Translations under genes and position numbers: made by a program
Part shown: positions 1 to 26,024 of the stretch, piece by piece
Layout of the letters: every line of letters starts with the position of its first letter
How positions within the stretch are numbered: the first letter of the stretch is position 1
IMG/VR virus record: IMGVR_UViG_3300032271_000825
Location: 1 to 26,024 of that record
Length of the DNA: 26,024 bases
Direction: 5' to 3' (one strand)
From: a virus
The notes under the pieces: generated by a model
Seen by the model: only the letters and a program-made list of their open reading frames with translations
Databases searched by the model: none
Told to the model about the DNA's origin: nothing

Positions 1-378
1 AACTACACCCCCGAACAATTCGCTCAAGCCGTTCTTGTCGCTCTTGAACAACTTAACGGTCCCGATCTTAGCAAACTTTCTTACGATGAAAAGAAAGAAC
101 TTGCTCAAAACTCCAACACACCACCAGAAACTCTAATCATTCTTGCAAAAGATAAGCATCTGAGTGTTCGCTATAGGGTTGCCGAAAACTCCAACACACC
201 ACAGAAAACTCTAATCCTTCTTGCAAAAGATGAGTATTCTGGTGTTCGCAATGCAGTTAAAAACAATCCCAATTATGTCCAAAATAAAGAGGTCACTCTA
301 ACCGTTCAACAAATTGAGGCCCTTAAGAATCTAATTGCCTCAAGTCAAGACGAGAATCTTAAGAGTATTAAACTCTGA
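1..378 (+). CDS. Leucine-rich-repeat-variant-like repeat protein, 5' end outside window
   Basis: The frame is open from the first base, so the N-terminus lies upstream. It encodes 125 visible residues. From about residue 37 there are two 26-residue repeats of the form NSNTPPETLIILAKD followed by a variable pair and VRYRVAE. This matches the leucine-rich repeat variant (LRV) pattern, in which short helices stack into a solenoid. The C-terminus (from about residue 89) leaves the repeat pattern and is polar. Close relatives occur at 14068-14400 and 25857 onward. LRV-type repeats usually mediate protein contacts; the partner here is unknown. A HEAT-like solenoid is an alternative description. Confidence 0.75.
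   Translation, partial: NYTPEQFAQAVLVALEQLNGPDLSKLSYDEKKELAQNSNTPPETLIILAKDKHLSVRYRVAENSNTPQKTLILLAKDEYSGVRNAVKNNPNYVQNKEVTLTVQQIEALKNLIASSQDENLKSIKL
109..264 (+). repeat. Two 78-bp coding repeats (LRV-like units)
   Basis: Two in-frame 78-base units start at 109 and 187. Each begins with AACTCCAACACACC and encodes one 26-residue repeat. The same units recur with little change at 14227-14382 and from 25914 to the window end, so they form dispersed direct repeats. Confidence 0.8.
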
Positions 379-465
379 AGTCTTTTATTACGAACAGATT
401 ATAATTAATTGTTAAAACCTCAAACCAAAACTGTCCTTTACTTTAAAAACAACAAAAAGCTACAT

Positions 466-690
466 ATGTACGAACAATCTTTTGCTGAAAAGTTTCGTAA
501 AGAAAAATTCACGCTACAAAGAGCACTTGACCGAGAGGTTATTCTCCCTATTGATAAACCTAAACTTTGGAAGAAAATCATCAAATTTTTTGAAGATCGT
601 AATGTTTTATTTTATGGTGAAATTGAGGCCGATTATATTATGATTTTAAATCTTATTTCTGAAGAACTTGGTATTGAGGTAATGGTCTGA
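466..690 (+). CDS. Hypothetical protein, about 74 aa
   Basis: I do not recognise this protein. From the ATG at 466 it is a 74-residue soluble protein with a basic N-terminal half (KFRKEKFTLQRALDRE) and a helical, acidic C-terminus ending in EELGIEVMV. A longer reading from a TTG at 409 would add 19 residues. I prefer the ATG because no ribosome site is evident at either codon. It is followed one base later by the next gene, so the two are probably cotranscribed. Confidence 0.6.
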   Translation: MYEQSFAEKFRKEKFTLQRALDREVILPIDKPKLWKKIIKFFEDRNVLFYGEIEADYIMILNLISEELGIEVMV

Positions 691-691
691 A

Positions 692-925
692 ATGAGTAAC
701 CAACCAAAGATTCTTCTCGAAACCGATGGAATGCGTTTTATAATTAAGGGTGAAATCTTTCATAATGGAAAGCCAGATTACCGTATGCAAACACGGCATC
801 CAATCTACAATACCTGGAAAGATTCTGTTCTTTTTGATAATGAGGTTCAATGTTCCTATGCAATGGAAGACCAGGAATATGCAAAACTTCTTATAGGAAA
901 ACCAGCATATCTTAAGGATGCCTAA
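692..925 (+). CDS. Hypothetical protein, 77 aa
   Basis: A small soluble protein of unknown function. The N-terminal half alternates hydrophobic and polar residues as in beta strands (ILLETDGMRFIIKGE), and the middle is rich in aromatic and basic residues. Its last eight bases overlap the start of the next gene (918), which indicates translational coupling. No catalytic motif is visible. Confidence 0.65.
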   Translation: MSNQPKILLETDGMRFIIKGEIFHNGKPDYRMQTRHPIYNTWKDSVLFDNEVQCSYAMEDQEYAKLLIGKPAYLKDA

Positions 926-1145
926 TACAACATTCCTACGTTGGATTGGTAATGGTTTTCTAATAATTGGTTATGGGGTCCTGCTTTATTTTAATGTAAA
1001 ATTGGGCCTAATGCTAAAGCTTATTGGAGGAGCACTATTGTTTCCTTCGTTTTATCGGCTAAAAATGTGGGACACCATTGCCATTAGTGTCTTTTTTGCA
1101 GTTCTAGAAGGAAGCAAACTTATTCAACTCTTATCAACAAAATGA
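918..1145 (+). CDS. Small integral membrane protein, 75 aa
   Basis: The protein is strongly hydrophobic, with probable membrane segments at about residues 10-25 (NGFLIIGYGVLLYF), 29-46 and 52-68. Short basic stretches lie between them. It probably sits in the host cytoplasmic or thylakoid membrane. Small membrane proteins like this are common in T4-like cyanophages, but I cannot assign a role. The start overlaps the preceding gene by eight bases and the end overlaps the next gene by four (ATGA). Confidence 0.7.
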   Translation: MPNTTFLRWIGNGFLIIGYGVLLYFNVKLGLMLKLIGGALLFPSFYRLKMWDTIAISVFFAVLEGSKLIQLLSTK

Positions 1146-1495
1146 ATTACATTTCAGGCCGACACCAAGAAATAGCCAGTTGGATTTGTGAACCTGAGGT
1201 TTTAACTAATCCAGAGAATTACTTCGGGCCAAATTATAAGACCATTCTCAATTTTTGGATTTATTGGTGGGGTTTAACCAAAGAACAACGATATGAGTGT
1301 TGGCTAAATTATTTAAATACTGATTTTTCCTTTAGAACTAGCTCTGAGCATTATTCTGAACTTTTAGCTCGCCAAGTTGCAGATAGGCGCATTGTTGATC
1401 ATTTGAGAGGCTATGAATGTGAAATACTGGTTGCTCATAAAATTCTAGAATCCGGTAAGTCTTTAGTCTTTCTACCCTTACTTGAAAACTTATGA
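1142..1495 (+). CDS. Hypothetical protein, 117 aa
   Basis: An unrecognised soluble protein, rich in aromatic residues in the first half (NFWIYWWGLTKEQRYECW) and helical toward the C-terminus. ATGA overlaps at both ends place it in the same transcription unit as the membrane protein before it and the fucosyltransferase after it. It might therefore serve the glycan cassette, but nothing in its sequence shows that. Confidence 0.65.
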   Translation: MNYISGRHQEIASWICEPEVLTNPENYFGPNYKTILNFWIYWWGLTKEQRYECWLNYLNTDFSFRTSSEHYSELLARQVADRRIVDHLRGYECEILVAHKILESGKSLVFLPLLENL

Positions 1496-2280
1496 TTTCT
1501 TTTAATAATTTAACGAATCTTGGCAGACTCGGAAATCAGATGTTTCAGTTTGCATCTTTAAAGGGAATTGCGAAAAACCGTGGATTTGACTTTTGTATTC
1601 CACCTCCAAATGTTTCCGGGCAAATTGATCTTAATGTGAGACAATCTGATGCCAATATTCATAACACATTTCAGTTAGAAAATGTAGTATATGGAATGAT
1701 GAACTATAATACTATAACAGAATCAACATTTAACTTTGACGAAAATCTATTTAACAATTGTCCAGACAATACTAATCTTTTAGGTTATTTTCAGAACGAA
1801 AGATATTTCCAAGATATTGAAGACGAGATACGAAGAGATTTTACTTTTAATGACGAAACTTTGAATCTCTGCCGAGAACAATTGAAGGACAAAGAATATA
1901 TTTCACTTCATATCAGAAGAGGAGATTATGTTAGTAATCCAAATCATCCGCTTATTGGACTTTCTTATTATGAAGAAGCCCTGAGTCATTTTGATTCCGA
2001 ATTATCAGTTATGGTATTTTCTGATGATCACAAGTGGTGTCAGGAGCAGAAGTTGTTTGATAATGATAGATTTTTAATTTCTGAGAATAATACAACGGCA
2101 ATAGATTTATGCTTACAGACTCTCTGTTCTTATCATATAATTTGTAATTCCTCTTTCTCTTGGTGGGGTAGTTATCTAGCTAGAAGTAAACTAACGGTTG
2201 CTCCTAAAATATGGTTCGGTTCGACTATGTTAGACAAGGATCATTCGGGAATATATAGAGAGTCTTGGCTGACACTGTAA
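1492..2280 (+). CDS. Glycosyltransferase family 11 (alpha-1,2-fucosyltransferase-like)
   Basis: A probable GDP-fucose-dependent transferase adding fucose in alpha-1,2 linkage to a galactoside. Motifs seen are GRLGNQMFQFASLKG at residues 11-25, the donor-binding HIRRGDY near residue 140, VFSDD near 175, and NSSFSWWGSYLA near 220. These are the diagnostic blocks of GT11, and 262 residues is close to the usual bacterial length. There is no signal peptide, so it should act in the cytoplasm on lipid-linked or protein-linked glycans. It overlaps the preceding gene by ATGA and is the first recognisable gene of the glycan cassette. Family assignment is secure; exact acceptor and linkage are inferred. 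Confidence 0.9.
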   Translation: MISFNNLTNLGRLGNQMFQFASLKGIAKNRGFDFCIPPPNVSGQIDLNVRQSDANIHNTFQLENVVYGMMNYNTITESTFNFDENLFNNCPDNTNLLGYFQNERYFQDIEDEIRRDFTFNDETLNLCREQLKDKEYISLHIRRGDYVSNPNHPLIGLSYYEEALSHFDSELSVMVFSDDHKWCQEQKLFDNDRFLISENNTTAIDLCLQTLCSYHIICNSSFSWWGSYLARSKLTVAPKIWFGSTMLDKDHSGIYRESWLTL

Positions 2281-2301
2281 AATAAACACTAATTTTTTAT
2301 A

Positions 2302-2913
2302 ATGCTAATAAATTTTTCAAATCTGTATAAGAAATATAATATGAGCATAACTGGCATCATTCATATTGGTGCCCATTATGGAGAAGAGTTAGAGGAATAT
2401 AAAACAAACAATATTTCAAATGTAGTTTTATTTGAGCCGCTATCTGCAAACTTTGAAGTATTAGAGCAAAGAGCGGCTAAGTTCAATATGAATATAATTG
2501 GCCATCAAGTTGCATTAGGAAATGATAATGGAACTGTTGAAATGTTTTTGAGCAGCAATCAACAGGAAAGTAGCTCTATATTGAAACCAAAACGTCATTT
2601 AGAACAATACCCACATATAACTTTTACTGAAACTGAAACTGTAATATTGTCTAAGTTAGATGACTATAAATATAAAACTTACAACTTTATCAATATGGAT
2701 GTTCAAGGTTACGAACTTGAGGTTTTGAAAGGCTCAACTGAAACTTTAAAATTTGTTGATTATGTTTATTGTGAAGTGAACAGAGATGAAGTATATGAAA
2801 ATAATGCTTTCGTTGAGCAACTTGATGATTTTTTAAAGGCATATAATTTGGAAAGGGTTCAAACTGAATGGTCGGGGGAAACTTGGGGAGATGCTCTGTA
2901 TATTAAAGAATAA
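2302..2913 (+). CDS. FkbM family methyltransferase
   Basis: A class I SAM-dependent methyltransferase. The SAM-binding motif I is IIHIGAHYGEE (residues 19-29), followed by the acidic strand end VVLFEP near residue 41. The family hallmark FINMDVQGYELEVLKG lies near residue 130. FkbM enzymes O-methylate sugars or small molecules and are frequent in glycan loci, where a methyl group can cap a terminal sugar. It lies between the GT11 and SDR genes, with a gap of only three bases to the next start. Substrate unknown. Confidence 0.88.
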   Translation: MLINFSNLYKKYNMSITGIIHIGAHYGEELEEYKTNNISNVVLFEPLSANFEVLEQRAAKFNMNIIGHQVALGNDNGTVEMFLSSNQQESSSILKPKRHLEQYPHITFTETETVILSKLDDYKYKTYNFINMDVQGYELEVLKGSTETLKFVDYVYCEVNRDEVYENNAFVEQLDDFLKAYNLERVQTEWSGETWGDALYIKE

Positions 2914-2916
2914 ACA

Positions 2917-3780
2917 ATGAAAATACTTATAACTGGGCATAAAGGTTTTGTCGGAAATTACTTTATGAGAAAATATTCCGAGCATGAAATTTTTGGAATT
3001 GATATAAAAGAAGGAAATGACTGTAGAGATTTTTTCAAGACCGATAAAGATACTTATTACGATTTGGTGATTCATCTTGCGGCTATAGTAGGGGGTAGAG
3101 AGACTATTGATAATAATCCATTATCTGTTGCCACAGACCTCTCTATTGATTCTGAGTTATGTCAGTGGGCATTGCGAGCTAAACCAGATGCTATAGTTTA
3201 TTTTTCTTCATCTGCCGCTTATCCAATACATCTACAAAGGAATAAATATCAACTAAAAGAAAATGATATTGACTTAAATAATGTCAGTAATCCTGATATG
3301 ACTTATGGGTGGGCCAAGTTGACAGGTGAATACCTTCTACAATTTCTTAAAGCGGAAGGAATAAGAACTTATATCTTTAGACCTTTTTCTGGATATGGAA
3401 CAGATCAATCACTAGATTATCCTTTTCCTTCTTATATTAAGAGAGCTAATGAATATTCTAATCCATTTGAAATCTGGGGAGATGGGAGTCAGGTTAGAGA
3501 TTTTATTCATATGAGTGATATTGTAGATGCTGTGGATATGGCACTAAGAAATGATATACAAGAACCAATTAATCTTGGAAGTGGAACTGCAACATCATTC
3601 AATCAATTATTTCAAATAGTTACGAAAATAAAAGGATATTGTGCCGAACCTAAACACATTTTAACCGCACCCATCGGAGTCCAATACAGAGTTTGTGATC
3701 CAACAAAAATGCTAACATTTTATACTCCAAAGGTTACATTAGAAGAAGGAATTGAAAGAGCCTTAGGGGGGCAGATATGA
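2917..3780 (+). CDS. NAD-dependent sugar epimerase/dehydratase (extended SDR)
   Basis: An extended short-chain dehydrogenase/reductase acting on a nucleotide sugar. It has a Rossmann glycine motif GHKGFVG (residues 7-13), HLAAIVGG near residue 52, the catalytic serine region YFSSSAAYP near 94, and the YGWAK (YxxxK) catalytic pair near 130. RPFSGYG and the WGDGSQVRDFIH block near residue 190 are typical of sugar-nucleotide epimerases. It could make or modify the donor for neighbouring transferases, for example a GDP- or UDP-sugar, but the sequence does not define the substrate. It ends with an ATGA overlap with the next gene. Confidence 0.88.
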   Translation: MKILITGHKGFVGNYFMRKYSEHEIFGIDIKEGNDCRDFFKTDKDTYYDLVIHLAAIVGGRETIDNNPLSVATDLSIDSELCQWALRAKPDAIVYFSSSAAYPIHLQRNKYQLKENDIDLNNVSNPDMTYGWAKLTGEYLLQFLKAEGIRTYIFRPFSGYGTDQSLDYPFPSYIKRANEYSNPFEIWGDGSQVRDFIHMSDIVDAVDMALRNDIQEPINLGSGTATSFNQLFQIVTKIKGYCAEPKHILTAPIGVQYRVCDPTKMLTFYTPKVTLEEGIERALGGQI

Positions 3781-4712
3781 AAAAAGTTATTATTTGGGGA
3801 TATAAGCTGGGAACACATACTCACTCCTATGTTCATAATGGTTATTATCGTGCGGCAGGGTTTCTTGGCTATGAAACTCATTGGTTTGATGATAATGATG
3901 ATTTAACATCTTTTAATTTTTCGGATAGTATTTTTATTACAGCCAATGGTGCTTGTAATAATATGCCAGTAAGGGAAGACTGTGTATATTTTAATCATTA
4001 TTGTGATGTTGTTTTTGGTAATACTGATAGAGTTACAAAAAGATTGAATCACCCAAATTATTATAACTTTGTATTTTTTGCAGACAAATGGCCAGATGGC
4101 GTTGCTAATATGTGGCCAAATAAGAATGAATTGGTAGAACTTTCATCTTTTCATTATCTTCATCAAAAAACTAATACTTTAACGACTATTTGGGCAACGG
4201 ATTTACTTCCAAATGAAATAGAGCAAATTGAGCCACAACTTCATAATGAATCTATTCCAAACATTTATTTTGTTGGAACTCCGCAGGGTCCAAATATAAC
4301 AGAATTTGAGCATTTTGCAAATATTAACGGAAAGCAATTACATAAAGTTGGGGGATGGTTGGGAATTGATTCTGGAACATCTCCGTCAATTTTTGACAAT
4401 GCAAATATAATAAGAAGTTCTTATGTATCGGTTGATATTAGGGAGCAAATTCACTTAAATCACGGTAGGTATTATCCCTGTCGTTTGTTTAAAAATATTA
4501 GTTATGGAAAATGGACTGGCTCAAATCATCCCGAGATTGCGGACCTTTTTGGTGAGTATTTTACGGTAGATTCTAATAATGAAAGTTTATACTATAAACT
4601 AGTGGAAGATTCTAGAAATTGCACTTATGAAAAAATGAAGGAGGCTATGACTTTCGTAAAGGATAAACATACATATGTAAATAGGCTTCAGGATATGTTT
4701 AAGTTACTATGA
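3777..4712 (+). CDS. Probable glycosyltransferase of the glycan cassette
   Basis: The 311-residue protein opens with a strand-rich segment (KKVIIWGYKLGTHTHSY). It contains central acidic and aromatic stretches and ends in a segment (RYYPCRLFKNISYGKW, then DLFGEYF) resembling the C-terminal donor-binding half of GT-B transferases. I cannot name a family. The evidence is position (ATGA overlaps on both sides within a row of sugar enzymes), length, and the general look of the C-terminal third. An unrelated carbohydrate-active protein is possible. Confidence 0.5.
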   Translation: MKKVIIWGYKLGTHTHSYVHNGYYRAAGFLGYETHWFDDNDDLTSFNFSDSIFITANGACNNMPVREDCVYFNHYCDVVFGNTDRVTKRLNHPNYYNFVFFADKWPDGVANMWPNKNELVELSSFHYLHQKTNTLTTIWATDLLPNEIEQIEPQLHNESIPNIYFVGTPQGPNITEFEHFANINGKQLHKVGGWLGIDSGTSPSIFDNANIIRSSYVSVDIREQIHLNHGRYYPCRLFKNISYGKWTGSNHPEIADLFGEYFTVDSNNESLYYKLVEDSRNCTYEKMKEAMTFVKDKHTYVNRLQDMFKLL

Positions 4713-5365
4713 AAATTGATTTAAGGCAAATACCAGCAGTTTATATGAATCTGGAGAAACATATAGAAAAAAATGAAAGGATGTATTCAATGCTTTCTAC
4801 TATGGGATTTAATGCTATTGAAAGAATTGAAGGAGTTTTAGATTCAGAAAATTCCGTTGCAGGATGTTCTAAGGCACATCATAAAGCTCTTTCGATGTTT
4901 GATGCACCTTTCATTCTTTTTGAGGATGATTGTGTTTTATATGAAGAGAATTTTCAGCCAATCGTTGAACTCCCCGATGATGCTGATGCTCTCTATTTGG
5001 GTGTATCCTCTTGGGGTAGAATGAATGGACACGATGGGGAATATGTTCAATATGATGAATTTGAAGATCACCCCAATCTACTAAGAATATACAATATGTT
5101 GGGTGGCCATTCGGTTGTTTATCTAAATGATTTTTATAGAAAAATGTGCGCTAAAGTTGCATATCATGCGGGATATGTCATTAAAAATTATCAGGATATT
5201 GGATTTGCTGAGATACAAAGGTTTTTTAATGTCTATAGCTTAAATAATCCAATATTTTATCAAACCAGTAATGAACTTGGAACTAAACAAAGTCTTACCT
5301 CATTTAATCATACGGAATGTATGAACATAGATTCCCTTCAATTTTACCCATATTCAATAAAATGA
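4709..5365 (+). CDS. GT25-like glycosyltransferase (first of a tandem paralogous pair)
   Basis: A 218-residue protein with the layout of LPS-type GT25 beta-galactosyltransferases: AVYMNLEKHIEKNERM near residue 10, GCSKAHHKAL near 52, and the metal-binding FILFEDDCVL near 69. ALYLGVSSWGR and RIYNMLGGHSVVY follow. It clearly aligns over its whole length with the gene at 6063, and the two flank the GT6 gene, suggesting duplication around it. The sugar and acceptor are not predictable. Overlaps are ATGA at both ends. Confidence 0.8.
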   Translation: MKIDLRQIPAVYMNLEKHIEKNERMYSMLSTMGFNAIERIEGVLDSENSVAGCSKAHHKALSMFDAPFILFEDDCVLYEENFQPIVELPDDADALYLGVSSWGRMNGHDGEYVQYDEFEDHPNLLRIYNMLGGHSVVYLNDFYRKMCAKVAYHAGYVIKNYQDIGFAEIQRFFNVYSLNNPIFYQTSNELGTKQSLTSFNHTECMNIDSLQFYPYSIK

Positions 5366-6066
5366 AAATCTGTATTCTCAATATTGCAACAAACAAGTAT
5401 ATTCACTTCGTTAAGCCTCTTTTAGATTCAATTGAATCTAATTTTTTAGTTGACCACGATATTTCGGCTTTGGTATTTACTAATCACGAAATTGAAGAGT
5501 GCTCAGACAATGTGAAAATCTCTCAAATTGAACACGAACCTTGGCCAATTCCAACTCTAAAAAGATACCATTATTTTTTAAAAGAAAGAGAATATATTTC
5601 AAGGTTTGACTACTGTTTTTATATGGATGTAGATATGAGGATTGAAAAAAAAGTTGGGGACGAAATTTTGGGCGATTTGGTTGCAACGCAACATCCTGGT
5701 TTTTGGTTTAAAGATAATACTCAGTTTTCTTATGAGCGCACTCAAAAATCAACTGCATACGTTCCTTTCGGCGACGGTAAAATGTATTATGCCGGAGGTT
5801 TTAATGGAGGTAAACCTGGACATTTTTTAAAAATGTCAGAGTCCATTGTTAATAATATTGAGAGAGATTTTAATAATAATATCATTGCTGAGTGGCACGA
5901 TGAATCTCATATGAATCGTTATCTTATAGATAATCCCCCAACTATTGAACTCAACCCATCTTATTGTTTTCCAGAGGCTGCATTTTACAATCCACAAGGT
6001 TGGCACGTACCCTTTGAGCCAAAGATCCTGGCTCTAGAGAAAAATCATAGTGAAGTTCGTCAATGA
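5362..6066 (+). CDS. Glycosyltransferase family 6 (ABO / alpha-1,3-Gal(NAc) transferase family)
   Basis: The start is the ATG at 5362, which overlaps the upstream stop as ATGA; an in-frame ATG at 5317 lies deep in the upstream gene. The 234-residue protein carries the GT6 signature blocks: YCFYMDVDMRI (metal-binding DVD), LGDLVATQHPGFWF, YERTQKSTAYVPF, YYAGGFNGG, and EWHDESHMNRYL followed by ELNPSYCFPE. The C-terminus KNHSEVR also matches the end of vertebrate ABO enzymes. GT6 enzymes transfer Gal or GalNAc in alpha-1,3 linkage from UDP donors with retention. It lacks the vertebrate stem and membrane anchor, as expected for a soluble microbial form. Confidence 0.92.
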   Translation: MKICILNIATNKYIHFVKPLLDSIESNFLVDHDISALVFTNHEIEECSDNVKISQIEHEPWPIPTLKRYHYFLKEREYISRFDYCFYMDVDMRIEKKVGDEILGDLVATQHPGFWFKDNTQFSYERTQKSTAYVPFGDGKMYYAGGFNGGKPGHFLKMSESIVNNIERDFNNNIIAEWHDESHMNRYLIDNPPTIELNPSYCFPEAAFYNPQGWHVPFEPKILALEKNHSEVRQ

Positions 6067-6815
6067 AAATTGATTTAAGAAATATTCCGGTTTATTACAT
6101 CAATCTTGAAGAAGAGACTGAGAAACGTAAAAGAACCGAATTATTGTTGAATGAAATGGGATTTGATAATGTTATTCGTGTTGAGGCTATTAAACACGAT
6201 GCTGGCAGGATTGTTGGTTGTGCTCGTTCTCATCACAAGATTCTATCATCTCTTAATAAACCTGCAATCATTATTGAAGACGATTGTTCTCTCAACAAAG
6301 AATTTGACGGAACAATAGATATTCCTGAAAATGCAGATGCAGTTTATCTTGGAATTTCACATTGGGGTAGATATTTAAATCATTCTGGCCCATTTGTTCA
6401 CACCGCAAAGACCGACACAGAATGTGTGAGAGTTTATAATATGTTAGCAACTCACGCCATTCTTTATAATTCACTTGATTATATTGCAATGTGTGCAAAA
6501 ATTGCACATTACTATGGGTATGAGGTGGAAAATCATATTGATATTGGATTTGCCGAGAACCAAAAATACTTCAATGTTTATGCTCTTGATGAGCCCTTAT
6601 TCCGGCAATATGAATGGTCAGCAGTGACAACCGGGAGATTATCAGAAAATTCAATAGATGTTGAAAATTCTGAAAAATTTTATCAATCAGTTATAATGGA
6701 TGACCAAAATTTCTATAAAATTAATGAAGAGTTTAAATCTCCATTTCGTCCTCTAATAAGCCGAAGAGATGTTAATGGTATTCCTGGTTATTTTGTCCCT
6801 ACGAGAATAGTTTAA
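6063..6815 (+). CDS. GT25-like glycosyltransferase (second of a tandem paralogous pair)
   Basis: Paralogous with the gene at 4709: both start MKIDLR and share the INLE/MNLE strand, a GC(A/S)(R/K)(S/A)HHK block, the EDDC metal site and the YLG(I/V)S.WGR block. This copy has 250 residues, with a C-terminal extension of about 40 residues (PFRPLISRRDVNGIPGYF) absent from the other. It probably adds a hexose in the cytoplasm to the same glycan as its neighbours. The stop overlaps the next start as TAATG. Confidence 0.82.
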   Translation: MKIDLRNIPVYYINLEEETEKRKRTELLLNEMGFDNVIRVEAIKHDAGRIVGCARSHHKILSSLNKPAIIIEDDCSLNKEFDGTIDIPENADAVYLGISHWGRYLNHSGPFVHTAKTDTECVRVYNMLATHAILYNSLDYIAMCAKIAHYYGYEVENHIDIGFAENQKYFNVYALDEPLFRQYEWSAVTTGRLSENSIDVENSEKFYQSVIMDDQNFYKINEEFKSPFRPLISRRDVNGIPGYFVPTRIV

Positions 6816-7708
6816 TGAAAAGTATTGTTACAGGTGGTTGTGGTTTTATTGGTTCTCATCTTGTAGATGAATTGGTTGAACTTGGCCACGAAGTTGTTGT
6901 CATTGATAATCAATGTTCATCAACAAGAACTGAATATTTCTTTAATGATAAAGCAACGTATATTAGAGCAAATTTAGTTTACTATAATCAATTTGAAGAA
7001 CATTTTGAAAATGCAACAAATGTATTTCATCTTGCCTCTGAAATTTCAATTCCTTTTTGTGTTGAAAATCCAAGAGAGTCAATGCAAAACAATATTATGT
7101 CAACTCTAAATGTTCTAGATGCCGCAAGGAAATATGGCATTGAAAAATTTGTTTTCTCATCAACTTCTGCTGTCTATGGAAATGATGCATTTCTTCCTAA
7201 TAGTGAAGACTTAGAAGTTGATTGCCTGAATACTTATTCAATATCAAAGTATTCTGGTGAACAGTTATGTCAAATGTACTATAACCTCTATGGCCTAAAG
7301 ACTGTAATTCTTAGATACTTCAATGTTTTCGGTGAAAGACAGCCAGAGACTGGAAGCTATGCTCCGGTTATTGGAATTTTTCTAAGGCAACGAGAAAATA
7401 ATGAACCGCTTACTCTTATTGGCAATGGATTACAGCGGCGAGATTTTGTTAATGTTAAAGATGTAGTTAATGCTAATATCTTAGCAACAACTCAACAACT
7501 TGATGAATATGGAGATGTTTTTAATGTTGGAACTGGACAAGCTTTAACTATTGCGAGTATTGCTTCTTTTATTTCTGATAACCAAATTTATTTGCCGGAA
7601 AGAGAAGGGGAGATATTATATTCTTATGCGAATAATGAAAAGATTAAATCTGCATTAGGTTGGAGGTCAACTGTTGATGTATTGGACTGGATTAAAGAGC
7701 AATTATGA
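6815..7708 (+). CDS. UDP-glucose/GlcNAc 4-epimerase-like SDR (GalE-like)
   Basis: An extended SDR of 297 residues: TGGCGFIGSHLVDEL (residues 6-20) binds NAD, VFHLASEISIPF lies near 70, VFSSTSAVYG near 111 holds the catalytic serine/threonine, and YSISKYSGEQL near 143 contains YxxxK. RYFNVFGERQ and the LIGNGLQRRDFVNVKDV block follow the UDP-hexose 4-epimerase pattern. GalE-type enzymes interconvert UDP-Glc/UDP-Gal or the N-acetyl forms, so it could supply the donor for the GT6 and GT25-like enzymes. Substrate choice is inferred from context only. Confidence 0.88.
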   Translation: MKSIVTGGCGFIGSHLVDELVELGHEVVVIDNQCSSTRTEYFFNDKATYIRANLVYYNQFEEHFENATNVFHLASEISIPFCVENPRESMQNNIMSTLNVLDAARKYGIEKFVFSSTSAVYGNDAFLPNSEDLEVDCLNTYSISKYSGEQLCQMYYNLYGLKTVILRYFNVFGERQPETGSYAPVIGIFLRQRENNEPLTLIGNGLQRRDFVNVKDVVNANILATTQQLDEYGDVFNVGTGQALTIASIASFISDNQIYLPEREGEILYSYANNEKIKSALGWRSTVDVLDWIKEQL

Positions 7709-8463
7709 CAATAGAAATATTTACATTTGTATTCAATAGACCTGATTTATTGGAACGGCAGGTAGATTGCCTTAAAAAATTTTTAATAGATGATTTTAAT
7801 TTAAATATAATTCACGACACTAGGAATGATAATTTTGTTCGGGAATTTGAAGAATCTAGTTTAAAAATAATTCAAAAATATAATGAAATTTGCGTGAATT
7901 ATATTAAACATAATTCTCCAGAGGGTATGCAATCATCAGAGTATCATTCAGATGCTCTTCAGTGGACTTACGATAATATCGTTAAATTACTAGAGGATAA
8001 GATTGTTTTATTTTTAGATCACGATATTTTTCTTACAGAAGAATTGAATCTCGCTGAAGAGATGAATAAATATGATATTCTAGGTTTACTACAAGAAAGG
8101 GGACATATTAAGTATATCTGGCCAGGTCTCGTTGCATTTAAGAGTAATTCTTTTGATGAAATAAATTGGAAATGTGGAATTGTTGAGGGTGAGAGTGTGG
8201 ATAGCGGTGGTGGAACCTATGCAATTCTTAGGAGAGATGGAGTAAGATTTAAAAATACAGGGGCAACATATCCAGAGGTCTACAAAGGTATTGATTTAAC
8301 AGATGAAAGTGTAACACTGGGATACAAATTTGAACTCCATTTTGATGAAAAGTTCTTACATTCTAGAAATGCCTGTAATTGGGATACACTTTATACTGTA
8401 AAGGATATAGATAAGACAAATCTGTTGTTATATATTCTGGATGATATATTATCAACAAGTTAA
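7705..8463 (+). CDS. Probable GT-A type glycosyltransferase
   Basis: The N-terminus IEIFTFVFNRPDLLERQ looks like the first strand and helix of GT2/GT-A transferases. IVLFLDHDIFL near residue 95 resembles the DxD-bearing strand with the form DHD. The rest is less typical, although GTYAILRRDG is compatible with a donor-binding loop. It overlaps the epimerase by ATGA and ends 19 bases before the last GT gene. Role inferred from fold-like features and location; the precise family is not identified. Confidence 0.6.
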   Translation: MTIEIFTFVFNRPDLLERQVDCLKKFLIDDFNLNIIHDTRNDNFVREFEESSLKIIQKYNEICVNYIKHNSPEGMQSSEYHSDALQWTYDNIVKLLEDKIVLFLDHDIFLTEELNLAEEMNKYDILGLLQERGHIKYIWPGLVAFKSNSFDEINWKCGIVEGESVDSGGGTYAILRRDGVRFKNTGATYPEVYKGIDLTDESVTLGYKFELHFDEKFLHSRNACNWDTLYTVKDIDKTNLLLYILDDILSTS

Positions 8464-8482
8464 AAAGAAATAAACAAATTAA

Positions 8483-9277
8483 ATGATGGACAAGAACAAA
8501 TCATTATATAAACTCAAAAATATTCCTCCAATCTATTACATCAATCTTGACGACCAAGAAAATCGTCGTAGATGTATGGAGGAACAATTTGATTATTGGG
8601 AAATCAAAAATTACACAAGAATTTCAGCATATGATGGTAGAACATCAGACCTTAGTGAGATTCTAAGAGGAACATATCCAGAAAAGATGACAAGTGGTGA
8701 GATTGGCTGTACTTGCAGTCATCTAAGGGCTATTAAAGAATGGTATGAAAATTCGGATACTCCTTATGCCCTGTTTATGGAAGATGATGTAGACATTAAT
8801 ATAGCTAGGTTTTGGAATTTTACATTCTCCGAGTTTCTTGCAAGAATACCATATGCCTGGGATTGTGTTCAATTAGCTATTATATCAACAGGTGATATTA
8901 CTGTTCCAATTCATACTAGATTTGTTAATAGTTTTTCAACTGCCTGCTATATGATAACCAGGAGATACGCAGAAAAGCTAATTGAACTACACGTAAGAGA
9001 TTCACAATATAAGCTAGACAATGATGTAAGACCGAGAGCTACGGCAGACGACTTAATTTATAATGCTGGATTGACTTATGCCTGTCCACTTTTTCTCTAT
9101 AAAATGGATCTGGGTTCAACAATTCACCCAGAACATTTAGATGCCTTTCATAAAAATTCTTATGATGGAGTTTATAATTTTTGGTCTCAAATGGGTTCTC
9201 AAGTATCCATTGAACAAATCACAGATTTTAATCCATATCTAGGGCGAGTTGCAGAGCCATCTGGACAAGTGCCTTGA
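8483..9277 (+). CDS. GT25 family glycosyltransferase
   Basis: A 264-residue protein with GT25 blocks: PPIYYINLDDQENRR near residue 12, then a GEIGCTCSHLRAIKEW block near 70, and YALFMEDDVDI near 92 for metal and donor binding. FSTACYMITRRYAEKL near 151 is the typical acceptor-side segment. It is a more canonical GT25 than the genes at 4709 and 6063. Two adjacent ATG codons (8483 and 8486) are both possible starts. It ends the glycan cassette; a late-promoter-like motif follows immediately. Confidence 0.85.
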   Translation: MMDKNKSLYKLKNIPPIYYINLDDQENRRRCMEEQFDYWEIKNYTRISAYDGRTSDLSEILRGTYPEKMTSGEIGCTCSHLRAIKEWYENSDTPYALFMEDDVDINIARFWNFTFSEFLARIPYAWDCVQLAIISTGDITVPIHTRFVNSFSTACYMITRRYAEKLIELHVRDSQYKLDNDVRPRATADDLIYNAGLTYACPLFLYKMDLGSTIHPEHLDAFHKNSYDGVYNFWSQMGSQVSIEQITDFNPYLGRVAEPSGQVP

Positions 9278-9278
9278 G

Positions 9279-9287
9279 AATAAATAG
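9279..9287 (+). promoter_or_regulatory. T4-type late promoter motif (AATAAATAG)
   Basis: AATAAATAG matches the TATAAATA late-promoter octamer of T4-like phages in seven of eight positions. It lies 18 bases before the gene at 9306, at the boundary after the glycan cassette. This is a sequence match only. Confidence 0.45.
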
Positions 9288-9305
9288 GTTAAACTCATAC
9301 CAATT

Positions 9306-9500
9306 ATGGAATACAGAATTGTTGAAGAGAATGATAAGTTTACTCCTCAAATTAAATCACTTATTTGGTGGATTTCTTTCGGATTCACTTATTCTAGTAA
9401 GGAAAATGCTCTTAAAGAAATTGAGAAGCATTACAGAAGGGTGAAGAGTAGAAGAGAGCCAGTTTATCATTCCGTCAACACTGATGATATTCAACTATGA
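9306..9500 (+). CDS. Hypothetical protein, 64 aa
   Basis: A small basic protein of unknown role. Its opening MEYRIVEENDKFTPQ resembles that of the gene at 12586 (MNYRIKETTD...FVPQ), and both have an aromatic central segment (LIWWISFGF here) and a basic end, so the two may be paralogues. It overlaps the nuclease gene by ATGA. Confidence 0.65.
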   Translation: MEYRIVEENDKFTPQIKSLIWWISFGFTYSSKENALKEIEKHYRRVKSRREPVYHSVNTDDIQL

Positions 9501-9898
9501 AGCTATCTTCTTTTCTATTTCTAATACCACTTTCTGTGATTTCCGTCACGAATGTTCCAATTTTACAAACGGATATTGTGACAAAAGTTCACGACGGAGA
9601 TACGGTTACAACTTCCTCTGGAGTTCACATTAGACTTGCCTGTATTGATTCTCCAGAAATTTCTAACAATAAGCACGGAAAGAAAGATGCAATTAATGGT
9701 CCAATTTCAAGAGATTGGCTTAAGACCATTGTTTTGAATAAGCAGGTAAATTATCAAAAAATAACAACAGATTTATACGGAAGAACTGTTGCTCGCATCT
9801 ATCTTACGGATGGAACTGAAGTTAATTATCTTTCGGTTAAAACTGGCCATTCGGTGCCTTATATGTATAAGTCCTGTCCTTGGGCTATCGTTAAATAG
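9497..9898 (+). CDS. Secreted thermonuclease-like protein (SNase fold)
   Basis: A staphylococcal-nuclease homologue of 133 residues. The first ~18 residues (MKLSSFLFLIPLSVISV) look like a signal peptide. VTKVHDGDTV near residue 29, RLACIDSPE near 46 and YGRTVARIYL near 94 supply the calcium-binding aspartates and the catalytic Arg/Glu/Arg set of the family. It should cut DNA or RNA outside the cytoplasm, for example in the periplasm. The domain is near the minimum size, with a short C-terminus. It converges with the reverse-strand gene, overlapping it by eight bases. Confidence 0.88.
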   Translation: MKLSSFLFLIPLSVISVTNVPILQTDIVTKVHDGDTVTTSSGVHIRLACIDSPEISNNKHGKKDAINGPISRDWLKTIVLNKQVNYQKITTDLYGRTVARIYLTDGTEVNYLSVKTGHSVPYMYKSCPWAIVK

Positions 9899-10082
9899 TT
9901 TCGTTATCCTTAATCCAATTCTTTAGACTATAGACATAATTTCTTAAATATTCAGCCTGATCTTTATGAAATACGTCTCCAGTTTTGATATAAAATTCGC
10001 TATGTAAGTCTATAGTCTTAAGAATCTGGGCAATTTTTGGACACCAAGGATTTCTAATTTCTGTGCCCCATTCTCTTGACAT
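9891..10082 (-). CDS. Hypothetical protein, 63 aa, reverse strand
   Basis: The only convincing reverse-strand gene in the window. It fills a stretch that is otherwise empty between the nuclease and the promoter at 10125. The protein (MSREWGTEIRNPWCP, then HKDQAEYLRNYVYSLK) has normal composition with a helical C-terminal half, unlike the shadow frames elsewhere. A GATAAATAG late-promoter-like motif lies about 20 bases upstream of its ATG on the same strand. Function unknown. Confidence 0.65.
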   Translation of the reverse strand: MSREWGTEIRNPWCPKIAQILKTIDLHSEFYIKTGDVFHKDQAEYLRNYVYSLKNWIKDNETI

Positions 10083-10102
10083 TATACGAAAAAAAGTTTT
10101 AA

Positions 10103-10111
10103 CTATTTATC
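10103..10111 (-). promoter_or_regulatory. Late promoter-like motif on the reverse strand (GATAAATAG)
   Basis: Read on the minus strand, the sequence is GATAAATAG, seven of eight matches to TATAAATA. It lies 20 bases before the ATG of the reverse-strand gene, a spacing that would give a short leader. Confidence 0.5.
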
Positions 10112-10124
10112 AGACCACTTTCTA

Positions 10125-10168
10125 AACTGTCCACAAAAGTCACCAAACGCCTAAAAATATACTATACT
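10125..10168 (+). promoter_or_regulatory. Candidate host-type promoter with AACTGTCCAC box
   Basis: AACTGTCCAC (10125-10134) is followed by TCACCA (10140-10145) and overlapping TATACT hexamers at 10158-10163 and 10163-10168. The gene at 10198 begins 29 bases later. The same box, a TCGCCA and a TATGAT at nearly the same spacing occur at 12802-12844, which supports a shared promoter class, probably early or middle. Confidence 0.55.
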
Positions 10169-10197
10169 GTTTACAGACATCACTCATTGAGAAAGTT

Positions 10198-10362
10198 ATG
10201 CAGCTCAATTCAACTGATTTGAAAAATCTTGATTATGCTCTATCGGTTGCCCTTAAAACCATCAAAAAGCACAATAACTTTGATGATTACGACGTATCCA
10301 CTACAGAATTAAAAGAACTTCAAGTTCGTATTCAAGAAGCAATTACTGAAGATGATAACTAA
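10198..10362 (+). CDS. Hypothetical protein, 54 aa
   Basis: A short acidic helical protein starting MQLNSTDLKNLDYALSVA and ending in EAITEDDN. It is the first gene after the promoter at 10125-10168, and its stop overlaps the start of the metallophosphoesterase by eleven bases, so the two are probably coexpressed. Function unknown. Confidence 0.6.
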   Translation: MQLNSTDLKNLDYALSVALKTIKKHNNFDDYDVSTTELKELQVRIQEAITEDDN

Positions 10363-11128
10363 ACAACTCAGCGATTTACATCTTGAGCACAGCCATCCCG
10401 GCGAGTATTTCAATCCAGGTAAAGGTGAAATACTCATCTTGTCCGGGGACATTCTATGTGCAAGACATTTTAAAAAGGAAGGTTTTCTTAAAGATATATA
10501 CACAAAATTCATAGACGACTGCTCAAGAAATTTTGAAAAAGTAATTTATGTGGCGGGAAATCACGAATTTTACGGCTACAACTATGAGGGAACATATAAA
10601 ACATTAAGAGAAACCCTTCCAGATAACTTTCATCTTCTTGAAAATGAAACTGTAAAGATCAATGATGTAAACTTCATTGGTTTTACGCTATGGACTAACT
10701 TCTTCAATGAAAATCCATTTGAAATGATGGATGCAAAGGGTTATATGGCCGATTATAGTACAATTCGGATTTCTAATAATTATAGAAAATTGAATCCAGA
10801 AGATACTTTAAAGTTTCATAAGACTAGCATTGAGTATCTTAAGAGTGAACTTGAAAGATTGAAGAATGAACGAGTATTTGTGGTTAGTCATCACGCACCA
10901 TCTCTTCAATGTATTACTCCAGAATTCAAAAATGGAAAATGTAATGGTTCCTTCTGCTCTGACCTGGATGAATTAATTTTGTCCAGTCCTCAAATTAAAA
11001 ATTGGGCTTTCGGTCACGTTCACAGTCAACACGATTTTTACATCGGTGAATGTAGAGTGACTGGTAATCCTCGCGGGTATCCTCACGAAAAAAATCAGTT
11101 TAATCCTAATTTTGAGATAGAGGTATGA
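10352..11128 (+). CDS. Calcineurin-like metallophosphoesterase
   Basis: A 258-residue phosphoesterase with the metal-binding motifs in order: SDLHLEH (residues 7-13), ILILSGDI near 29, YVAGNHEFYG near 68, VVSHHAPS near 178, and FGHVHSQHDF near 215. These form the binuclear metal site of the calcineurin-like superfamily. Substrates in this group range from nucleotides to nucleic acids and phosphoproteins, and nothing here selects one. The C-terminal GNPRGYPHE motif is often seen in phage and bacterial members of this type. It is second in its unit and overlaps the following start. Confidence 0.88.
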   Translation: MITKQLSDLHLEHSHPGEYFNPGKGEILILSGDILCARHFKKEGFLKDIYTKFIDDCSRNFEKVIYVAGNHEFYGYNYEGTYKTLRETLPDNFHLLENETVKINDVNFIGFTLWTNFFNENPFEMMDAKGYMADYSTIRISNNYRKLNPEDTLKFHKTSIEYLKSELERLKNERVFVVSHHAPSLQCITPEFKNGKCNGSFCSDLDELILSSPQIKNWAFGHVHSQHDFYIGECRVTGNPRGYPHEKNQFNPNFEIEV

Positions 11129-14068: not shown

Positions 14069-14400
14069 TGAAATACTTATCTTGGCTATTTTTCTGGCGA
14101 AAGAATGAAAAGCTAGAAGAAAATTGGAGGGATCGTTATAAAATTTCTAAAGATTTGGAAACTCCAACATATGTGTTAGATATTTTTTCGCGTGATGTAG
14201 ACTGGTTTGTTCGCGTTGTTTCTAGTAACTCCAATACGAGACCAGAAACTCTAACAATTCTTGCAAAAGATAAGGATTCTGGTGTTCGCTATAGGGTTGC
14301 TCAAAACTCCAACACACCACTAGAAGCCCTAATCATTCTAGCAAAAGATGAGAATTTTTATGTTCGTAATGCAGTTGAAAATAACCCCCAATTCAACTAG
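14068..14400 (+). CDS. LRV-type repeat protein, 110 aa
   Basis: A complete member of the repeat family also seen at both window ends. A unique N-terminal part of about 53 residues contains WLFFWRKNEKLEENW and ends VDWFVRVVSS. Two 26-residue repeats follow, each starting NSNT and containing LAKD and VR(Y/N). The end is NPQFN. Likely a small right-handed solenoid for protein binding. The DNA of its repeats is very close to that of the other two loci, pointing to recent duplication or gene conversion. Confidence 0.75.
   Translation: MKYLSWLFFWRKNEKLEENWRDRYKISKDLETPTYVLDIFSRDVDWFVRVVSSNSNTRPETLTILAKDKDSGVRYRVAQNSNTPLEALIILAKDENFYVRNAVENNPQFN
14227..14382 (+). repeat. Two 78-bp coding repeats (LRV-like units)
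   Basis: Two in-frame 78-base units starting at 14227 and 14305. They share long identical stretches (for example ATTCTTGCAAAAGAT and GTTCGCTATAGGGTTGC) with the units at 109-264. Confidence 0.8.
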
Positions 14401-14444
14401 AGAAATCATTCAAACTAAGAGGGCATTTGAGTTTCTGAAAGATT

Positions 14445-25856: not shown

Positions 25857-26024
25857 ATGCTTGACAAGAATCTTCGTAATCTTACTGTATCTGAAAAGAA
25901 AAGTCTTGCCCGAAACTCCAACACACCACCAGAAGCTCTAATCATTCTTGCAAAAGATGAGGATTGGACTGTTCGCTATTGTGTTGCCAATAATTCCAAC
26001 ACCCCACCAGAAACTCTAATCATT
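25857..26024 (+). CDS. LRV-type repeat protein, 3' end outside window
   Basis: Starts MLDKNLRNLTVSEKKSLAR and enters the same 26-residue repeats as the loci at 1 and 14068 (NSNTPPEALIILAKDED, then VRYCVAN, then NSNTPPETLII). The frame stays open to the last base. It is the third member of the repeat family within 26 kb, and lies just after the gp32 terminator. Function unknown; protein-binding solenoid inferred. Confidence 0.75.
   Translation, partial: MLDKNLRNLTVSEKKSLARNSNTPPEALIILAKDEDWTVRYCVANNSNTPPETLII
25914..26024 (+). repeat. 78-bp coding repeats (LRV-like units), incomplete at window end
   Basis: One full 78-base unit (25914-25991) and the first 33 bases of a second. Shares AACTCCAACACACCACCAGA with the unit starting at 109. 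Confidence 0.8.

Follow-up and report, generated by a model that had tools for sequence, protein, structure and literature searches.

A ten-gene glycan cassette with GT11 and GT6 glycosyltransferases in a T4-like, cyanophage-related virus

Large gene clusters, long referred to as lipopolysaccharide (LPS) clusters, have been described in cyanophages, together with the idea that they remodel the host surface and affect superinfection (PMC3037559, PMC2984593, PMC9602691); that they block superinfection by altering the surface has been put forward in print (PMC2984593, PMC9602691), and LPS is known to serve cyanophages as a receptor (PMC4390846). Glycosyltransferase (GT) family 6 is already on record in 'two cyanophages', and the GT6 enzyme of Bacteroides ovatus, BoGT6a, transfers GalNAc to 2'-fucosyl-lactose, yielding the A antigen (PMC3961637). 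Here we describe a cassette of ten genes at positions 1492-9277 of the virus record IMGVR_UViG_3300032271_000825, whose full 26,024 bases are referred to as the window. Like the described clusters, it is a multi-gene GT and epimerase cluster in a T4-like, cyanophage-related genome, and it combines GT11 with GT6, the two families that in humans contain FUT1/FUT2 and the ABO synthases respectively. The reading that we prefer, tentatively and with somewhat less than even confidence, is that the genes form a modular cassette with which a T4-like cyanophage would decorate a glycan of the host surface.

As the initial annotation had indicated, the ten genes are adjacent and on the same (+) strand. 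All ten open reading frames (ORFs) are intact and tightly packed, with a 4-bp overlap at six junctions, a 1-bp overlap at one, and spacings of 3-21 bp at the remainder. The first gene, 1492..2280 (+), had been assigned to GT11, the alpha-1,2-fucosyltransferase family, and the sixth to GT6, with profile placement set as the test; both assignments held. The 1492 product matched PF01531 (4.3e-31, 108.7 bits against a cut-off of 23.9) and phrog_2644 (7e-105), with no match among solved structures. Together with the profile match, the other mark of CAZy GT11 is present, the HxRRxD motif, which reads HIRRGD at 1909-1926 (+) and is kept in five phage GT11s. The GT6 gene, 5362..6066 (+), was assigned its start at 5362, the longest ORF being one that would open at 5317. 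Its product matched PF03414 across the whole catalytic domain (4.7e-44, 150.9 bits against a cut-off of 25) and NF041524 with an E value of 7e-61, where its 205.7 bits fall under that subfamily's cut-off of 250. Among solved structures the best match was BoGT6a (5e-49), followed by human GTA (6e-35).

The motifs expected of a CAZy GT6 enzyme are all present on the + strand: alignments placed the metal-binding DXD motif, here DVD, at 5626..5634 and the catalytic HDES motif at 5896..5907, while the acceptor loop, with its histidine, is HPGF at 5692..5703 and the donor loop is AGG at 5788..5796. The window enzyme shares AGG, HPGF and HDES with BoGT6a, and DVD, HPGF and HDES with GTA, whose donor loop is LGG; unlike GTA it has no Golgi stem or membrane anchor. 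Bovine a3GT, with its sequence checked against its PDB entry, has QAWW and HAA in the acceptor and donor loops. Since the AGG loop is identical to that of GalNAc-transferring BoGT6a, GalNAc is probably the donor sugar of the window enzyme, and the HPGF loop, compatible with a fucosylated acceptor (Fuc-a1,2-Gal), is suggestive. In GT6 the occurrence of DXD or NXN follows metal dependence (PMC3961637). The window enzyme is probably metal-dependent, because it has DVD where the metal-independent BoGT6a has NAN (PMC3961637). It is also a candidate tool enzyme that would be membrane-free and, probably, metal-dependent.

The pairing of GT11 and GT6 is not new, being found in P-SSM2, Bellamy, B23, ACG-2014f and dozens of Synechococcus phages. 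The LPS cluster of Prochlorococcus phage P-SSM2 (PSSM2_257-271) has, in nearly the same order as the window, GT11, two uncharacterised genes, GT6, a further uncharacterised gene, a nucleotide-sugar epimerase and GT25, with identities to the window of 62% for GT6 and 51% for GT11; many Synechococcus phages share the set of GT11, GT6, epimerase and GT25. The P-SSM2 cluster differs in having an upstream Gmd and Fcl-like gene and GT2, GT1 and PhyH genes, none of which is in the window, whereas the window has FkbM together with the GT-B product of 3777 and the GT-A product of 7705. In the Synechococcus phages Bellamy, B23 and ACG-2014f, GT6 follows GT11 directly or almost directly within a glycan cluster, but this GT6 belongs to another clade, with DAD, the donor loop QGC and 32-34% identity to the window GT6. 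A literature search, with most subscription papers outside its reach, found no proposal of an ABO-like pathway in a phage.

The remaining eight genes agree with the families first proposed. An FkbM-family methyltransferase at 2302..2913 (+; PF05050 3.7e-17, TIGR01444) is followed by a short-chain dehydrogenase/reductase (SDR) of the nucleotide-sugar epimerase/reductase type at 2917..3780 (+; PF01370 1e-31). The second SDR, 6815..7708 (+), had been called GalE-like, and its nearest solved structures are indeed GalE, then WbpP/WbgU; it matched the Pfam NAD-dependent epimerase family at 4.7e-57 and the UDP-sugar 4-epimerase equivalog TIGR01179 at 4.6e-49, its 167 bits being under the cut-off of 262, and resembles both the GalE and the WbpP/WbgU types. 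Three genes had been described as GT25-like. The last in the cassette, 8483..9277 (+), is a GT25 enzyme by Pfam (PF01755 1.2e-13; phrog_2835 3.6e-113). The other two, 4709..5365 (+) and its paralogue 6063..6815 (+), both match phrog_24091; a Pfam search gave no match for the 4709 product, and a PF01755 match of 5e-4, under the Pfam cut-off, for that of 6063. Because a comparison of hidden Markov models (HMM-HMM) matched phrog_24091 to the GT25 profile (97% probability over ~99 N-terminal columns), 'GT25-like' is a fair label for both. The two further probable transferases of the initial annotation were borne out by AlphaFold models, which assign 3777..4712 (+) to a GT-B-fold, GT4-like transferase (pLDDT 91; PimA Z 16.7, and other GT-B enzymes) and 7705..8463 (+) to a GT-A-fold transferase (pLDDT 94; GT6, SpsA and COLGALT1 folds). 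Neither product gave a Pfam, PHROG or NCBIfam match; they represent two glycosyltransferase families conserved in many phage clusters for which these collections hold no model. A hydrophobic segment is absent from all ten proteins (maximum KD19 1.36), as expected for cytosolic transferases. A promoter and terminator scan gave a signal close to the shuffled background.

The modular character of the cassette was seen by comparison with the closest relative, L086. The SDR and GT-B genes, 2917..4712 (+), form a clean two-gene insert, since the parts of L086 that blastn pairs with window positions 1421-2929 and 4709-7748 abut each other; the 7705 gene has diverged relative to L086. The insert and the diverged gene together indicate that such cassettes are reshuffled, and the SDR and GT-B pair is possibly a mobile donor/transferase module. 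Both the 2917 and the 3777 gene have relatives at different positions in further phage clusters, L056 and L035 among them.

The window represents part of a T4-like virus related to cyanophages. Downstream of the cassette lie genes for ThyX (PF02511), PhoH, an exonuclease, a helicase loader, a DNA methyltransferase and a gp32-like single-stranded DNA-binding protein (SSB), a set that indicates a T4-like phage. The SSB is closest to that of Synechococcus phage B23 (54.7%), a DUF6433 protein and the GT25 enzyme match almost exclusively cyanophages, and the isolate-phage matches to GT6, GT11 and GT25 are nearly all Synechococcus or Prochlorococcus phages. As the relatives of the SSB, the DUF6433 protein and GT25 lie in cyanophages, the host is probably a cyanobacterium. 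The host marker psbA was absent from one close large relative and matched the other only weakly and in pieces, so the assignment of a cyanobacterial host draws on other relatives. In the L038 record (G006), the psbA-like match at 79757-82223 is in three gapped pieces, suggesting a gene interrupted by an intron or insertion. Megablast of window positions 1-10500 against phages gave no matches.

GT6 relatives were found on 550 IMG/VR stretches. Among 112 viral GT6s, DXD was present in all 112 and HDES in 111, with the donor loops AGG (85), QGC (25) and QGS (2). This diversity, DXD-type throughout the sampled enzymes, extends far beyond the 'two cyanophages' of the accessible GT6 literature. In the tree, viral GT6s formed two virus-only sets, one of 28 rows with local support 97 and one of 12 rows with local support 100, separate from bacteria. 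Dependentiae and Chlamydiae genomes (loci L170-L187) carry GT6 on a branch adjoining the phage GT6 clade of the window. Only 2 of 390 cyanobacterial genomes had GT6, and 5 of 96 had GT11. With both families rare in cyanobacteria, the phage enzymes add to the capability of the host rather than copy it. Recent capture of GT6 from a host is unlikely, given its rarity in those genomes and because viral GT6 sits in the two virus-only sets.

The initial annotation had gone further and suggested a complete short ABO-like pathway in one operon. This did not stand, as neither the window nor two ~245-kb relatives supply GDP-fucose: no Gmd or Fcl was found in the 26,024-base fragment, nor any above the cut-off in the relatives. 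The 2917 SDR was considered as a GDP-fucose synthase and rejected, because it reached 77.8 bits on NF047922, a model whose cut-off is 500 and on which Fcl-like proteins from other phages reach 462-483 bits. In P-SSM2, ACG-2014f and several contigs Gmd lies upstream of GT11, and an Fcl-like gene adjoins Gmd where checked. GDP-fucose is probably supplied by the host, which is plausible because Gmd was found in 345 of 390 cyanobacterial genomes.

In the scheme that we infer, cytosolic phage enzymes would, during infection, lengthen a glycan intermediate of the host, most likely of outer LPS or capsule, and cap it, with nucleotide sugars drawn mainly from the host. GT25-type enzymes would add hexose (b-Gal-like) units, GT11 would then add a-1,2-fucose from host GDP-fucose, and GT6 would then add a-1,3-linked GalNAc, or less likely Gal, the UDP-sugar for this step coming from the GalE-like SDR. 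FkbM would O-methylate the glycan, and phage receptors on the infected cell would be masked or altered. An A-antigen-like cap is a plausible hypothesis. In its boldest form, which we hold to be doubtful, the proposal is that infected cyanobacteria display at their surface a true A-antigen-type cap, GalNAc-a1,3-(Fuc-a1,2)-Gal, built by cyanophages with host GDP-fucose and metal-dependent GT6s of virus-only clades, which would block competing phages or grazers. If GT6 does use the product of GT11, marine viruses would carry out ABO-like capping, a trait nearly absent from their hosts, and the long-standing proposal of host-surface remodelling by cyanophage LPS clusters would gain a concrete product detectable with antibodies or lectins.

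Several observations weigh against this scheme. GT11 was present in 41 of 42 GT25-anchored phage clusters, irrespective of GT6; co-occurrence therefore carries no information and was rejected as proof of a pathway. In the clade of the window, adjacency of GT11 and GT6 was at chance by within-locus permutation (9 observed, 8.9 expected), and the bacterial branch nearest to this clade, Dependentiae/Chlamydiae, mostly lacks a neighbouring GT11. The host of the virus, moreover, is deduced from relatives only. Finally, the flippase Wzx (PF01943) was not found in eight relatives (137-248 kb, possibly fragments), other flippase families lying outside this search; either the host would then have to provide export, or the cassette has a target other than a surface glycan.

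The first three of these observations also speak for the possibility that GT11 and GT6 act on separate branches or acceptors, GT6 adding GalNAc or Gal to an unfucosylated sugar with no ABO-like motif. Vertebrate GT6 members such as a3GT accept unfucosylated sugars, and 11 of 80 viral GT6 loci had no GT11 within the DNA covered. The other 69 had GT11 on the same strand, upstream in 67 of them, with a median gap of 1.4 kb, which argues against separate acceptors, as does the HPGF loop, which is that of enzymes with fucosylated acceptors and not QAWW. In the clade of the window, GT11 and GT6 lay within 2 kb more often than expected (35 against 25, p 0.0055), and adjacency exceeded the permutation expectation in GT25-anchored phage loci (9 of 12 against 1.7) and in bacteria (28 of 49 against 8.1). 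The p-values are optimistic, because the null model drew on every long ORF of either strand and because the loci are phylogenetically related. The pairing is a real genomic association in general and a weak one in the clade of the window. Of the blood-group-like pairing first proposed, the co-location, the intact catalytic set of GT6 and the match of its loops to BoGT6a thus stood, while the functional link is weak in this clade. On balance we consider separate acceptors possible but on the unlikely side.

Glycosylation of virion proteins of the phage itself, such as capsid, tail-fibre or hoc-like proteins, with the fucosylated chain built directly on protein, would accord with enzymes that all look cytosolic and with the missing flippase in the eight long relatives. 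Tail-fibre genes lie within several kb downstream of the cluster in ACG-2014f and P-SSM2, and protein-linked glycans are known in mycobacteriophages, as cited in PMC12619734. The cassette, however, has no recognisable initiating enzyme for protein glycosylation, and its neighbours in the window are replication genes, not virion genes. GT25, GT11 and FkbM are, as general family knowledge, typical of LPS and O-antigen outer chains, and decoration of virion proteins by this cassette seems to us improbable.

Transfer of the sugars to phage DNA as a hypermodification against restriction, as phages are known to do with transferases and as the resemblance of the 3777 structure to T4 AGT (among many GT-B enzymes) might suggest, is very improbable and was set aside, since the window has ThyX (PF02511) as its thymidylate synthase and not a hydroxymethylase, a review finds no evidence for modified or glycosylated DNA in cyanomyoviruses (PMC2984593), and structural similarity between GT-B folds says nothing about function. 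That the genes are non-functional 'stuffer DNA' filling the head of a large cyanophage, a possibility raised in PMC3037559 and in keeping with their highly variable, modular content, is scarcely credible given the DXD and HDES motifs kept across two virus-only GT6 clades and the ten intact frames, which indicate selection.

Two further features of the window lie outside the cassette. Directly 3' of it, 9497-9898 encodes a small staphylococcal-nuclease-domain protein whose N-terminus is hydrophobic. A multi-copy repeat related to the leucine-rich repeat variant (LRV) family occurs at 1-375, about 14216-14442 and 25905-26024, and all three sites match one repeat family in the relatives L033 and L086 with 70-82% DNA identity.

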